Below are positions 17,985-22,150 of a stretch of DNA of 64,000 nucleotides, in pieces. Location: contig NZ_JAFLWI010000012.1 in NCBI RefSeq assembly GCF_017315945.1, positions 1 through 64,000 of the forward strand, given 5' to 3'. The DNA comes from Candidatus Enterococcus courvalinii. GTDB taxonomy: Bacteria > Bacillota > Bacilli > Lactobacillales > Enterococcaceae. Numbering within the stretch: position 1 is the stretch's first letter; each line of letters starts with the position of its first letter. A program made the position numbers and the translations under genes. The notes below the pieces were generated by a model that saw nothing but the letters and a program-made list of their open reading frames with translations, was not told the DNA's origin and searched no databases.

Positions 17985-18359
17985 ATGTTTCGGAAAATAG
18001 ATCAATTTGTTAAGAAGTCACCAATTTATAGAATGATCGTAGTGATTACACTAGTCGCAGTAGGCGAAGTTTTGTTCAACCTGATTAATCATCGCTTTTT
18101 ATTTAGTAACATGCAAACAACATATACGTTTCTATTGCTCTATGGAGGGATGTTGCTTGTTTCGAAACTCCGTTTGCCAAGTTGGCTACTGTTCGTCTTG
18201 GTCTATTTGATTTTCTTTAGTATGTTTAGTGTTGAAATGTTTTTGGATCATAGTTATGTTGACTATACTTCTTTTATTGTCATTGGTGGGATCACTCTGT
18301 TGATAGCAACAATCGTAACGATTGGTGCAGTGGAAATCAAAAAGCGGGGGCACCGCTAA
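17985..18359 (+). CDS. Four-helix integral membrane protein of unknown function
   Basis: A 124-residue protein with four predicted membrane helices at about residues 16-33, 44-60, 65-82 and 93-115 and short charged ends (MFRKIDQFVKK, EIKKRGHR). I do not recognise its family. The GAGGTG site before ATG 17985 is good and the coding frame has ordinary codon use. It lies alone between the prfC terminator and the TetR promoter, and no clear terminator follows. Confidence 0.7.
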   Translation: MFRKIDQFVKKSPIYRMIVVITLVAVGEVLFNLINHRFLFSNMQTTYTFLLLYGGMLLVSKLRLPSWLLFVLVYLIFFSMFSVEMFLDHSYVDYTSFIVIGGITLLIATIVTIGAVEIKKRGHR

Positions 18360-18546: not shown

Positions 18547-18594
18547 TTGACGGCTAAAAGAAATTCTAGTATCATCGATATGAACGTTGTTCAT
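18547..18594 (+). promoter_or_regulatory. TetR-gene promoter with overlapping operator palindrome
   Basis: TTGACG (18547-18552), 17 bases, then TATCAT (18570-18575) make a clear promoter. The palindrome ATGAACGTTGTTCAT (18580-18594) covers the expected transcription start. A near-identical palindrome recurs at 19185-19199 after the regulator gene, so this is very probably the regulator's operator and the gene is autorepressed. Confidence 0.8.
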
Positions 18595-18611
18595 GTTAAG
18601 GGGGAAGGGTA

Positions 18612-19166
18612 ATGAATAATGCTGTTAGCTCAAAAGAAGCACTGGTTAGCTATTGCAAAGAAATTGTGAAAGAGCAAGGAATTCAGGCGGTCAATATTCG
18701 TTCTTTAGCAAAAAAAAGCGGCATCTCTGTTGGCGCTGTTTATAATTATTTTCCTTCAAAAAGTCATTTGCTGTCTGCAACAATTGGAAGTATTTGGACA
18801 GAAATCTTTCATTTGTCTGAAACATCTTTCGACTTTGATAACTTTCTTGACTGTTTGGTAGCTTTGTTAAAAAGTATCGAAGAAGGAAAAAAACTGTATC
18901 CTAATTTTTTTACAGCACATGCATTAGTTATGCCTGCGGAAGATCAAGCAATGGGTTCAGAATTGATGGAAACTTATTGGAACCATATCAAGCAAGGCAT
19001 GCTCAAGGCGTTACAAAAAGATCCACAGGTTCGAGACAATGTGTTTAATCATCAATTATCGATGGAGGGATATGTTGATTATATATTTGAGTTATTTCTT
19101 TATACGATGATTAGCGAAAAACAACACGAAAACTTATTACAACTCGTCCGTAACTCAATCTATTAG
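18612..19166 (+). CDS. TetR/AcrR family transcriptional regulator
   Basis: A 184-residue regulator. The N-terminal helix-turn-helix is residues about 10-55 (GIQAVNIRSLAKKSGISVGAVYNYFPSKSHLLSA), the canonical TetR form. The C-terminal ligand domain is divergent and does not reveal the inducer. Operator palindromes lie 18 bases before its start and 18 bases after its stop, directly before a three-gene membrane operon, so it likely represses itself and that operon. Start ATG 18612 follows GGGGAAGGG. Confidence 0.92.
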   Translation: MNNAVSSKEALVSYCKEIVKEQGIQAVNIRSLAKKSGISVGAVYNYFPSKSHLLSATIGSIWTEIFHLSETSFDFDNFLDCLVALLKSIEEGKKLYPNFFTAHALVMPAEDQAMGSELMETYWNHIKQGMLKALQKDPQVRDNVFNHQLSMEGYVDYIFELFLYTMISEKQHENLLQLVRNSIY

Positions 19167-19184
19167 TAAAAAATTTAAAGCAAA

Positions 19185-19199
19185 ATGAACATTGTTCAT
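19185..19199 (+). promoter_or_regulatory. Second TetR operator palindrome
   Basis: ATGAACATTGTTCAT matches the operator at 18580 in 14 of 15 positions, including both six-base arms. It sits 12 bases before the ATG of the next gene and abuts its ribosome-binding site (AAGGGG), so a bound repressor could block transcription or translation of the membrane operon. Confidence 0.78.
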
Positions 19200-19210
19200 A
19201 AGGGGTACTT

Positions 19211-19621
19211 ATGGTAAAAAAATTACAATTATTATTAGTTGCAAGTTTAGTTTGGCTATTTGCAGGTTTTAATGTCGCAAAAATTGGAATAGATGCATAT
19301 CGAAGTTATCTTGGAATATTGAATATAGTTCTATCCATTTTGGTTTTTTTGATCTTTTGGTTCATGATATTTGGACCTTTGGTGAAAAAACATACCCAAA
19401 GAATCAGTGAACTGAACGAAGAAATGCAGTTCTTTTTAAATTTTTTTGATGGCAAATCATTTAGTATCATGGCAATCATGATTCTTGGAGGTCTTGGTAT
19501 CCGAAAGTTTCAGCTATTACCTGAGCAATTTATTGCTATTTTTTATAGTGGTCTGGGAATTGCGTTGTTTTTGGCAGGTATCGTTTTTGGGTATAACTAC
19601 TTTAATACAAATAGAAAGTGA
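19211..19621 (+). CDS. Membrane protein of unknown function, first gene of TetR-controlled operon
   Basis: A 136-residue protein with four predicted membrane helices (about residues 5-22, 33-55, 80-97 and 108-127) separated by a charged loop (KKHTQRISELNEEMQ). I do not recognise a named family. It starts just after the second operator and is followed nine bases later by the DUF2871 gene, so its expression and role are probably tied to that pair. Confidence 0.75.
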   Translation: MVKKLQLLLVASLVWLFAGFNVAKIGIDAYRSYLGILNIVLSILVFLIFWFMIFGPLVKKHTQRISELNEEMQFFLNFFDGKSFSIMAIMILGGLGIRKFQLLPEQFIAIFYSGLGIALFLAGIVFGYNYFNTNRK

Positions 19622-19630
19622 GCAGAAAAT

Positions 19631-20050
19631 ATGAAAAAAGTGATGAATACAGCGATTGTTTATTTTGTTCTAGCAATGAGTAGTGGTGTTTTTTATCGAG
19701 AAATTACTAAGTTAAATGATTTTATGGGGCAAACGGTTTTGGCGGTTGTCCATACTCATTTATTTGCTTTGGGAACAGGACTATTTTTATTGATGGCAGT
19801 TCTTTTTAAACTGACACATCTAGAAGAAAATAAACTGTATAAAAAGTTCTATCTATTATATAACATTTCTTTTCCTTTGATGATTGTAATGATGGTTGTT
19901 AGGGGGATGATCCAAGTTCAGCAACGAGCGATTTCTACGAGTATGGATGCAATGATTTCTGGGATTGCAGGTTTATCGCATATTGGAGTTGCAGTGGCAT
20001 TGTTGATGGTGTTATTAGCAATAAAAAAAGAAATGCTTAATGAAATGTAG
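19631..20050 (+). CDS. DUF2871 family membrane protein
   Basis: A 139-residue protein with four predicted helices. The segment VVHTHLFALGTGLFLLMAVLFKL and the later GIAGLSHIGVAVALLMVLL match the DUF2871 family as I know it, including His residues inside helices that could bind haem or metal. No function is established for this family. It is in an operon with an HsmA-like protein that also has buried histidines; together they may form a small haem- or redox-related membrane complex, which is inference. Confidence 0.82.
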   Translation: MKKVMNTAIVYFVLAMSSGVFYREITKLNDFMGQTVLAVVHTHLFALGTGLFLLMAVLFKLTHLEENKLYKKFYLLYNISFPLMIVMMVVRGMIQVQQRAISTSMDAMISGIAGLSHIGVAVALLMVLLAIKKEMLNEM

Positions 20051-20068
20051 GAAGAAGGAGAAGTGTAG

Positions 20069-20446
20069 ATGTCAACTTTATTAATTGCAGCAATTAGTTG
20101 TATGGTTTTAGCTTTAACGTTTTATACGATTGGAGTATTTGCCGAAAGAAAAACAGGTTTATTGTTGAACTGGCACGCACTGGTTTTCTGGTGTGGTTTT
20201 GTCTTTGATACTGCTGGAACAACGATTATGAGTAAAATTTCTGGTCATGGTTTTACCTTTAATTTGCATAGCGTAACAGGATTAGTTGCGTTACTATTAA
20301 TGGCTTTCCATGCAATTTGGGCAACAATTATTTTGATCAAAAAAGACGACAAAGCTAAGCAGACATTTCATCGATTTAGTTTATTTGTCTGGATTGCATG
20401 GTTAGTTCCTTTTGTTTTAGGTATTTTTATTGGGATGAATCAATAA
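20069..20446 (+). CDS. HsmA family protein (TIGR03987)
   Basis: A 125-residue four-helix membrane protein. The segments LNWHALVFWCGFVFDTAGTT, NLHSVTGLVALLLMAFHAIW and HRFSLFVWIAWLVPFVLG fit the HsmA family, which has several conserved His residues within or next to helices, often a haem-binding pattern. GAAGGAG lies before ATG 20069. It ends the TetR-controlled operon and is followed by a strong terminator. Its biochemical function is not established. Confidence 0.82.
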   Translation: MSTLLIAAISCMVLALTFYTIGVFAERKTGLLLNWHALVFWCGFVFDTAGTTIMSKISGHGFTFNLHSVTGLVALLLMAFHAIWATIILIKKDDKAKQTFHRFSLFVWIAWLVPFVLGIFIGMNQ

Positions 20447-20487
20447 GAATTTTTGTCTAAAAAGTGTAAGAAATAAAAAACAGTATT

Positions 20488-20526
20488 AGAGGAGGAGATA
20501 AAATAAAATCTCCTCCTCTTTTTCTA
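20488..20526 (+). terminator. Strong terminator of TetR-HsmA operon
   Basis: AGAGGAGGAGAT and ATCTCCTCCTCT form a perfect 12-pair stem with an eight-base loop, followed by TTTTCT. Confidence 0.9.
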
Positions 20527-20621: not shown

Positions 20622-21164
20622 ATGGCAAGGCCGAAAAAGAAGACGGATCTGATGTTCCTTGCAGAGGAACAATTTGTTGCATTGATGGAGTTGGTAAATA
20701 CGTTGACCGAAGAGGAACAGAAGACGCCATTTACGTTTGATGAAGCATTTTTGTCCAAGAAAAAAGAAAAACATTGGCGTCGAGATAAAAATATCCGAGA
20801 CGTTTTTATTCATTTATATGAATGGCATCAATTACTCTTACATTGGGTGAAAGAAAATCAAGTTGGCAAAGAAGTTTCATTTCTACCATCACCTTATAAC
20901 TGGCGAACGTATGGCGAAATGAATGAGGCGTTTGTTGAAAAGCACCAAGTAACTTCTTTGGAGCAAGCAAAAGACCTGTTGAAGCAAAGTCATCATGAAG
21001 TGATGAGGGTAATTAATTCTTTTACAAATGAAGAATTATTTGTAAAAAACCAGTTAAGCTGGACAGGAAATTCGACATTGGGTAGTTATTGTATCTCTTC
21101 GACTTCTAGTCACTATGAGTGGGCAATTAAAAAAATCAAGCAACATATCAAAAATAAGAAATAA
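20622..21164 (+). CDS. ClbS/DfsB family four-helix bundle protein
   Basis: A 180-residue DinB-like four-helix bundle protein. VFIHLYEWHQLLLHWVKEN and FLPSPYNWRTYGEMNEAF match the ClbS/DfsB (formerly DUF1706) family, whose founding member ClbS protects against colibactin. Most relatives in Firmicutes have no known role, and no toxin locus is seen here, so resistance is not implied. It has its own AAGGAG site and lies between a terminator and an AraC-type regulator. Confidence 0.85.
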   Translation: MARPKKKTDLMFLAEEQFVALMELVNTLTEEEQKTPFTFDEAFLSKKKEKHWRRDKNIRDVFIHLYEWHQLLLHWVKENQVGKEVSFLPSPYNWRTYGEMNEAFVEKHQVTSLEQAKDLLKQSHHEVMRVINSFTNEELFVKNQLSWTGNSTLGSYCISSTSSHYEWAIKKIKQHIKNKK

Positions 21165-21289
21165 AATTGATATTCAAAGGGACCAAACTGTGTTACTACA
21201 TTCATGAAAAATCGACTAAAAATGTCTAGCTAAAATCAAGTATAGTCACTGACAAAAGGTTAACCTGTTAATGAAGTTAGGAGGAAAAG

Positions 21290-22150
21290 ATGATTCAAGA
21301 CTTAAACAAACTAATTGATTATATCGAAGAAAACTTAACAGGCGAACTTTCGTTGACTGAAATTGCTCAACAAATGGGAATTTCTGACTATCATTTAAAA
21401 CGAACTTTTTCATTTGTTGCTGGTATGACTTTAGCGGAATATGTCAAAAATCGAAGACTGGCATTAGCAAATCAAGATTTGATTTCAGGAGAAAAAGTTA
21501 CTGAAGTCGCATTTCGTTATGGGTATCAGACAGTCGAAGGCTTTTCAAGAGCTTTTCGAGAATGGAGTGGTTACTTGCCTTCAGAGATTAGAAAAATAAG
21601 AATCCAAAAATCTTTTCCTAAACTTTCATTTTATATTGAAATAAGAGGAGGAATTTCTATGGAATTCAAAATTGAAAAAAAGGCGGCATTTCAACTGGTA
21701 GGTGTGTCTAAGCGTGTACCAATCAAGTTTGAGGGAAAAAACCAAAGAATTGTTGAATTGGCACAATCAATCACCGAAAAACAGCGGGAAGAAATGTATC
21801 AGTTAGGTGACTTATATCCCCACCAAGTAGTAAATGCTTCTTATCATTTTGATGAGGGAAGATTAGTAGAAACAGGAAGCTTGACCCATATGATTGGTTT
21901 TTTAACTAGTAAAGAAAATGTGTTTAGTGATTTGGAACAGATAACTGTTCCAGAACATACATGGGCTATTTTTCCTAACCGTGGAAAGTTTCCCGAAGTA
22001 CTACAAGAAACAATGGCACGGATTTTCTCTGAGTGGTTACCTTCATCAGAGTATCAATTGGTAGAGGCACCAGAAATTTCTTTTACTAATTGGACAAAAG
22101 ATCAAGAGAATCTGACTAGTGAAATCTGGCTAGCAGTTACCAAAAAATAA
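21290..22150 (+). CDS. AraC family regulator with GyrI-like effector domain
   Basis: A 286-residue regulator. Residues 1-105 carry two helix-turn-helix motifs of the AraC/XylS DNA-binding domain (LSLTEIAQQMGISDYHLKRTF and VTEVAFRYGYQTVEGFSRAFREWSG), and residues 120-286 are a GyrI/Rob-like small-molecule-binding domain (IEIRGGISMEF to the C-terminus). This order is as in SoxS/Rob-like effector regulators of drug responses. An internal AGGAGG plus ATG at 21660 could also make the effector domain on its own. AGGAGG precedes ATG 21290. The inducer and targets are unknown. Confidence 0.92.
   Translation: MIQDLNKLIDYIEENLTGELSLTEIAQQMGISDYHLKRTFSFVAGMTLAEYVKNRRLALANQDLISGEKVTEVAFRYGYQTVEGFSRAFREWSGYLPSEIRKIRIQKSFPKLSFYIEIRGGISMEFKIEKKAAFQLVGVSKRVPIKFEGKNQRIVELAQSITEKQREEMYQLGDLYPHQVVNASYHFDEGRLVETGSLTHMIGFLTSKENVFSDLEQITVPEHTWAIFPNRGKFPEVLQETMARIFSEWLPSSEYQLVEAPEISFTNWTKDQENLTSEIWLAVTKK

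Follow-up and report, generated by a model that had tools for sequence, protein, structure and literature searches.

Organization of the Operon

A stretch of 64,000 nucleotides from Candidatus Enterococcus courvalinii, which we refer to as the window, carries on its + strand, between positions 18547 and 20526, an apparently TetR-controlled membrane operon with two matching putative operators. This had been proposed in a first-pass annotation made from the letters of the sequence, and as a sequence layout it is confirmed (Table 1). The regulator gene is flanked by the two matching palindromes, both of them where they had been described, and is followed by genes for three small membrane proteins: Mem3, which belongs to no Pfam or NCBIfam family above cut-off, a DUF2871 protein, and a member of the HsmA family. 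The family assignments were borne out by profile scores above the cut-offs of 27.4 (PF11070) and 78.2 bits (TIGR03987), the regulator passed that of TetR_N (24 bits), and Mem3, DUF2871, and HsmA each display four hydropathy peaks, in keeping with the four-helix proteins that had been annotated. The unit is also as compact as claimed; it runs from a promoter-like site to a terminator-like hairpin, and only 9 and 18 bases separate mem3 from the DUF2871 gene and the latter from hsmA, respectively.

Table 1. Features of the operon, with positions in the window.
Feature	Position	Strand	Evidence
Promoter-like TTGACG-17-TATCAT ahead of tetR	18547–18575	+	Sequence; consensus scan, 10/12
Operator 1 (putative), ATGAACGTTGTTCAT, at the expected transcription start	18580–18594	+	Sequence and pattern search
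tetR, TetR-family repressor, 184 aa	18612–19166	+	PF00440 (TetR_N), 40.3 bits
Operator 2 (putative), ATGAACATTGTTCAT, abutting the mem3 ribosome-binding site	19185–19199	+	Sequence and pattern search
mem3 ribosome-binding site, AAGGGG	19200–19205	+	Sequence
mem3, four-helix membrane protein, unnamed family, 136 aa	19211–19621	+	
DUF2871 membrane protein, 139 aa	19631–20050	+	PF11070, 154.8 bits
HsmA-family membrane protein, 125 aa	20069–20446	+	TIGR03987, 152.8 bits
Terminator-like hairpin closing the unit, 12-pair stem, then T-run	20488–20519	+	

The spacing of the TTGACG-17-TATCAT element places Operator 1 where transcription is expected to start, in agreement with the annotation. Operator 2 had been placed on the ribosome-binding site of mem3, and on this point we differ, as it adjoins the AAGGGG sequence without covering it. 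Promoter-like matches are not commoner in the window than in shuffled sequence (4 versus a mean of 9.9); TTGACG-17-TAAAAT is found at the equivalent position in loci L042 and L050. Operator 2 lies 605 bases downstream of Operator 1, and because no promoter-like match was found on the + strand immediately 5′ of it, a mode of action through DNA looping or as a transcriptional roadblock is conceivable.

Conservation of the Palindromes

When the 64 kb were searched for the palindrome with up to two mismatches, it was found in two places only (4 strand hits, against a mean of 0.81 and a maximum of 3 in shuffled sequence). In the 2.6-Mb genome TGAACNNNGTTCA occurs in 5 places; the operon's two are intergenic, and the remaining three fall within open reading frames. 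On this ground a wider regulon in this genome was rejected. There is no genome-wide over-representation of the motif (a backward control pattern gave 9 forward and 9 reverse matches), and we therefore place the weight on its position and conservation.

We scored TGAACNNNGTTCA in 72 named Mem3 loci, obtained from a scan with mem3 that reaches only relatives matching one of two peptide patterns. The same type of TetR was found in 38 of them, and in these the palindrome stands at both positions in 28 loci, before tetR only in 9, and nowhere in one (L077), with no additional site in 362,467 bases. Before tetR it is located 27–63 bp ahead of the profile match (37 of 38 loci), and before mem3 25–48 bp ahead (28 of 38); it also precedes mem3 in 7 of the 34 named loci where no TetR was detected. 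Both palindromes are present in Enterococcus dispar (L062) and Enterococcus canintestini (L064), and the most divergent of the aligned TetRs, those of L129 and L080, are still flanked by the pair. Such conservation is strong comparative evidence in favor of autoregulation by this TetR, which would bind the palindromes. A literature search with the operator letters returned a sole match, which concerns lung cancer.

The TetR Regulator

The 24 aligned members of the regulator family range down to 32% identity with the window protein. In the ligand domain, H103 is kept in 37 of 39 sequences and H125 in 35 of 39, and we regard both as candidate ligand residues. A search from the regulator side, in which at most eight candidates were scored per genome so that the count is a lower bound, gave a TetR locus in at least 7 of 398 genomes. 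The six loci outside the window comprise two with Mem3, two with a 220-aa membrane protein described below, and two with neither; in L190 and L192 no palindrome was found even under a looser pattern.

Matches of the regulator among solved structures fall mainly in the DNA-binding part and include KstR, MtrR, and AcrR, which are regulators of lipid or drug responses. They speak for an alternative in which the signal for the TetR is some small, hydrophobic toxicant (a drug, bile acid, fatty acid, or quinone) and the membrane proteins constitute a general envelope-stress response, with histidines serving structure or proton handling. Many of the named hosts belong to genera that we take to be inhabitants of the gut, where this alternative would fit, and a major facilitator superfamily transporter of about 490 aa adjoins HsmA in 4 of 9 neighbor-scanned loci (L014, L018, L019, and L022). 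A response to glucose of two DUF2871 genes in Staphylococcus epidermidis is in line with it too. The oxidase-like HxH motif that DUF2871 keeps in 52 of 52 sequences argues against a toxicant response, as do the retention of H103 and H125 in the ligand domain and the haem binding reported for HsmA (PMC12670364; PMC11442138), and on balance we consider it unlikely, though it is the alternative that we take most seriously.

The DUF2871 Protein and Haem-Copper Oxidases

Residues R23, H41, H43, G48, Y77, G92, G111, G114, and H117 of DUF2871 do not vary in any of the aligned sequences that span them (52 or 53 rows), and the HxH pair (H41 and H43) and H117 are kept in all 52 rows. A profile of 38 DUF2871 members, compared by hhalign with 13 COX1-family proteins of Bacillota, aligned over 93 columns with 90% probability (pairwise E 1.7e-6, score 48.25), and H41 and H43 fell on the HxH columns H320 and H322 of the oxidases. 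In oxidases the HxH motif provides axial ligands for two haems and ligates haem rather than copper. The aligned part, template columns 289–388 of 416, amounts to approximately a quarter of an oxidase. The score stands well apart from its controls, as 100 column shuffles reached at most 20.3, 100 hydrophobicity-preserving shuffles at most 26.1, and the reversed profile 15.7; with both His columns masked it was still 37.2 (58.7%), and the window protein alone obtained 36.8 (65.5%).

As for the kind of oxidase involved, rows 0–6 of the oxidase alignment gave 88.2% and rows 0–8 gave 88.9%. The five of rows 0–6 that were scanned score 39–78 bits with the cbb3 subunit model, far below its cut-off of 583, and row 8 has no match; judged by their motifs, they are presumably nitric oxide (NO) reductase-like. 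Conversely, the Pfam DUF2871 model matched the same stretch of oxidase L171 (residues 303–380, E 0.004, 17.9 bits, below the cut-off of 27.4) and had no match in L168, the other of the two scanned, and 1 of the 38 DUF2871 members matches COX1 (8.6e-4). At the level of sequence profiles, then, DUF2871 resembles part of distant haem-copper oxidases. A cytochrome link for this family is not a new idea, because a genomic language-model paper, which cites an earlier structural hypothesis, already draws a connection between DUF2871 and the cytochrome c and cbb3 domains (PMC12804078). In the excerpts of literature obtained no functional test of DUF2871 was found, and a search for DUF2871 together with "nitric oxide reductase" found nothing.

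The alignment with COX1-family catalytic subunits raises the alternative that the membrane proteins are a miniature reductase that removes O2, peroxide, or NO with haem and is fed by quinol or another donor, and the weak cytochrome b561 resemblance of HsmA members and a host with no CydA or COX1 match would both suit it. However, DUF2871 falls short of a complete subunit I and its further ligand helices, with its 139 residues, its four hydropathy peaks, and an alignment restricted to a quarter of the oxidase, and Pfam and NCBIfam scans recognized no electron donor protein in the operon, so that we regard a reductase as improbable. The three invariant histidines, two of them arranged as HxH, could also bind a bare metal (copper or zinc), which the system would then handle. 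Yet this HxH aligns with the haem-ligating one of oxidases, and HsmA is reported to bind haem elsewhere (PMC11442138); of the explanations weighed here, metal handling is the hardest to sustain, and we give it very little credence.

The HsmA Protein

Among 22 HsmA sequences H36 is conserved in 21, H67 and H81 in all 22, and H101 in 20; the window protein has retained these histidines. Members of the family show weak matches to Cytochrom_B561 (12 of 22, best 3.1e-5) and Ni_hydr_CYTB (11 of 22, best 0.0012); likeness of HsmA to the oxidases (0.1%) or to DUF2871 (0.4%) was discarded on the hhalign probabilities. On a plasmid of Paraclostridium sordellii, a member of the Peptostreptococcaceae, the family of Clostridioides difficile, the gene listed directly before hsmA encodes a MarR regulator, and the HsmA protein there is 48% identical to that of the window. 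In C. difficile, according to one review, HsmR senses haem and activates hsmRA, and HsmA stores haem in the membrane as a defense against oxidative stress (PMC12670364); according to a second review, HsmR represses until it is haem-bound and HsmA binds haem without exporting it, presumably sequestering it (PMC11442138). The first-pass annotation was therefore mistaken in describing these families as without any known function, while the conserved histidines and the haem or redox theme that it had pointed out are supported.

HsmA takes part in the palindrome scheme in three arrangements. It lies inside the operon in the window and in L059, L060, L063, L065, and L071. In two Clostridium species (L124:4403-5420 and L128:1892-2907) it is divergent from mem3 with a palindrome ahead of each gene, and no TetR of this type was recognized at these loci. 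Finally, in L150:1495-2530 it stands alone right behind a TetR, and each of the two genes is preceded by a palindrome of this type.

Mem3 and the 220-aa Protein

The 72 named relatives of Mem3 conserve R64 (71/71), D80 (72/72), R98 (72/72), and H61 (70/71). No solved structure was matched by sequence (best E 1.1), and hhalign gave 0.2% against the oxidases. A single open frame joins Mem3 and DUF2871 in L087, L139, and L140, and also in L130, where it is cut by the contig start; because some genomes encode both proteins in a single frame, we suggest that Mem3 and DUF2871 touch. These shared frames, the company of Mem3 and this TetR in 38 of 72 loci, and the resemblance of DUF2871 to oxidases are points that the first-pass annotation had missed. 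In Gardnerella, Mem3 occurs with DUF2871 in L069, L092, and L097 and without it in L091, L093, and L094; neither this type of TetR nor the palindrome was found at any of these six loci.

A highly conserved membrane protein of 220 aa is encoded 3′ of Mem3 in L073:5445-6116, L104:3752-4417, L115:4543-5208, and relatives (alignment A3). It is followed by DUF2871 in six loci, and in L189 and L190 it comes after the TetR in the absence of Mem3. It has no Pfam family above cut-off and weakly resembles the MASE3 and 7TMR-DISM sensor domains, with no solved-structure match up to E 1 in the sequence search and an oxidase likeness of 0.2% by hhalign.

Distribution of the Gene Set

Conservation of the neighborhood beyond close relatives, whose absence had been named beforehand as one of three outcomes that would overturn the annotation, was indeed found. 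The full TetR-Mem3-DUF2871-HsmA set is present in five loci, from two Enterococcus, Lactococcus formosensis, and two Clostridia (an uncultured Eubacteriales bacterium and Anaerovorax odorimutans). Counting partners within 1.5 kb of Mem3 on either strand in the 72 named loci, these five are accompanied by 11 loci with TetR only, 10 with TetR and the 220-aa protein, 6 with TetR and DUF2871, 6 with TetR, the 220-aa protein, and DUF2871, 7 with DUF2871 only, 2 with the 220-aa protein only, 2 with HsmA only, and 1 with DUF2871 and HsmA. Within the genus, DUF2871 and HsmA were found in the same 3 of 15 genomes searched. Across 295 genomes of the order, HsmA scored above cut-off in 16 and DUF2871 in 63, and Mem3 was matched in 13, two of which (G066 and G226) we discounted as weak hits in frames with stops; all 11 remaining genomes have DUF2871, adjoining Mem3 in 10 and on a different contig in G264.

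The four operon genes gave nonsynonymous (dN) and synonymous (dS) divergences of 0.010–0.072 and 0.30–0.37 against Enterococcus thailandicus (L060), and of 0.021–0.054 and 0.07–0.22 against Enterococcus sp. DIV0660C (L059). These values agree with purifying selection, although the case is weakest for mem3 in the comparison with DIV0660C (dN 0.054, dS 0.075). Of 72,556 plasmid records, 2 contain Mem3 and 6 contain HsmA, and DUF2871 was found in 1 of 50,697 phage records, all with less than 60% identity, so there is no sign of recent spread via plasmids (searched with Mem3 and HsmA) or phages (searched with DUF2871).

Upstream of the operon (17985–18359) a hydrophobic 124-aa protein is encoded that has no Pfam or NCBIfam match up to 0.1, and downstream (20622–22150) there are genes for a DUF1706 protein and for an AraC regulator that contains a GyrI-like domain, an order kept in L008, the E. 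thailandicus counterpart. A role in anti-phage defense was considered and dropped: a PADLOC search (up to 0.01) with all four proteins of the operon plus the 220-aa protein gave one match, of 15.5 bits, in the DNA-binding part of the TetR.

Haem in the Host

No CydA, COX1, or ferrochelatase match was found in the window's genome. In 37 genomes, all hand-chosen from loci with the module or parts of it, the window's included, ferrochelatase was not matched in 32 and was matched in 5, a count that may reflect a trait common in these lineages. The pattern agrees with the use of outside haem. In one of the five, Lactococcus fujiensis (G696, L076; contig C34), the ferrochelatase consists of three adjoining pieces, two of which have stops.

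A Proposed Module for Borrowed Haem

The explanation that we favor, with a probability of roughly 0.55, is that the operon is autorepressed by its TetR and serves to load borrowed haem into small membrane proteins, which would give haem or redox protection. The dedicated TetR would occupy the two operators of its own operon and shut it off until a ligand, most likely haem or else a haem-linked oxidant or NO signal, releases it, whereupon TetR and the three small four-helix membrane proteins would be made. HsmA and DUF2871 would each hold a b-type haem through their conserved histidines. Since the cell is apparently incapable of haem synthesis, this haem would have an external source. Mem3 would be the partner or anchor of DUF2871, and the set would store or shield haem in the membrane, where its redox chemistry may protect the cell.

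Several observations weigh against this explanation. At the level of distribution, most of the HsmA and DUF2871 genes seen fall outside this regulon: the palindrome was found in only 1 of 24 HsmA loci checked outside the window's group (L150), and among 30 DUF2871 loci from the order, with 3-kb flanks, TetR and Mem3 adjoin in L042 and L050 and Mem3 alone in L049. None of the four partners accompanies Mem3 in 22 of the 72 loci. The known partner of HsmA is a MarR-type regulator, and in the window its place is taken by a TetR. As for haem binding, the window HsmA has no Cytochrom_B561 match and reaches only 14.2 bits with Ni_hydr_CYTB (cut-off 30.1), and neither HsmA (best E 0.56) nor DUF2871 (best E 0.92) was recognized by sequence in solved structures; the similarity of DUF2871 to oxidases fell to 0.4% with the three aa3 rows alone and to 2.3% with row 7, the sole clearly cbb3-like row. 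Ferrochelatase was matched in Kurthia gibsonii (L101), two Collinsella (L106 and L121), Enorma phocaeensis (L112), and the L. fujiensis mentioned above. Physiological reports add to these points: in C. difficile R20291, silencing of hsmA left haem-dependent metronidazole resistance unchanged, a TIGR03987 gene of Bacteroides showed a 2.5-fold increase on iron depletion that was not significant (P 0.28), and the two DUF2871 genes of S. epidermidis are glucose-responsive.

A bolder extension, which we offer as speculation and hold to be doubtful, is that these loci represent an undescribed and widespread regulon in which one type of TetR and a fixed operator pair govern exchangeable tiny haem-holding proteins (Mem3, DUF2871, HsmA, and the 220-aa protein), with DUF2871 acting as a free-standing NO-reductase-like core fragment by which bacteria that lack a respiratory chain dispose of O2, NO, or peroxide with the help of borrowed haem. 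If DUF2871 were a working core fragment of an oxidase or NO reductase, it would provide an unusually small haem site for the superfamily. In these loci one type of regulator with a recognizable operator is linked to a protein reported to bind haem, to a functionally uncharacterized domain, and to two membrane families that lack a name, and their functions can therefore be tested together. They also suggest how bacteria seemingly unable to make haem, here one with no CydA or COX1 match, might exploit haem from food, blood, or neighbors.

Comparison with Known Systems

The operon can be set beside several known systems. DUF2871 aligns with haem-copper oxidases (COX1, PF00115) around the HxH motif, but it is a four-helix protein of 139 residues and the alignment is partial. 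HsmA is like cytochrome b561-type proteins in its size, four helices, and conserved histidines, and about half of its 22 members match them weakly, whereas the window protein remains far under the cut-off (14.2 versus 30.1 bits, Ni_hydr_CYTB). On the regulatory side, and by description, the haem sensors HrtR of Lactococcus lactis, FhtR of Enterococcus faecalis, and HatR of C. difficile are likewise TetR repressors with palindromic operators, and FhtR binds two palindromes, from which haem releases it (PMC7858072). These regulators control efflux proteins (HrtBA, HatT), in contrast to the window, where Pfam and NCBIfam scans placed no operon protein in a transporter family above cut-off. The HsmRA system of C. 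difficile shares with the window a regulator gene and an HsmA-family membrane protein (TIGR03987 above cut-off), but the window has a TetR instead of a MarR regulator, two palindromes, and the additional Mem3 and DUF2871 proteins.

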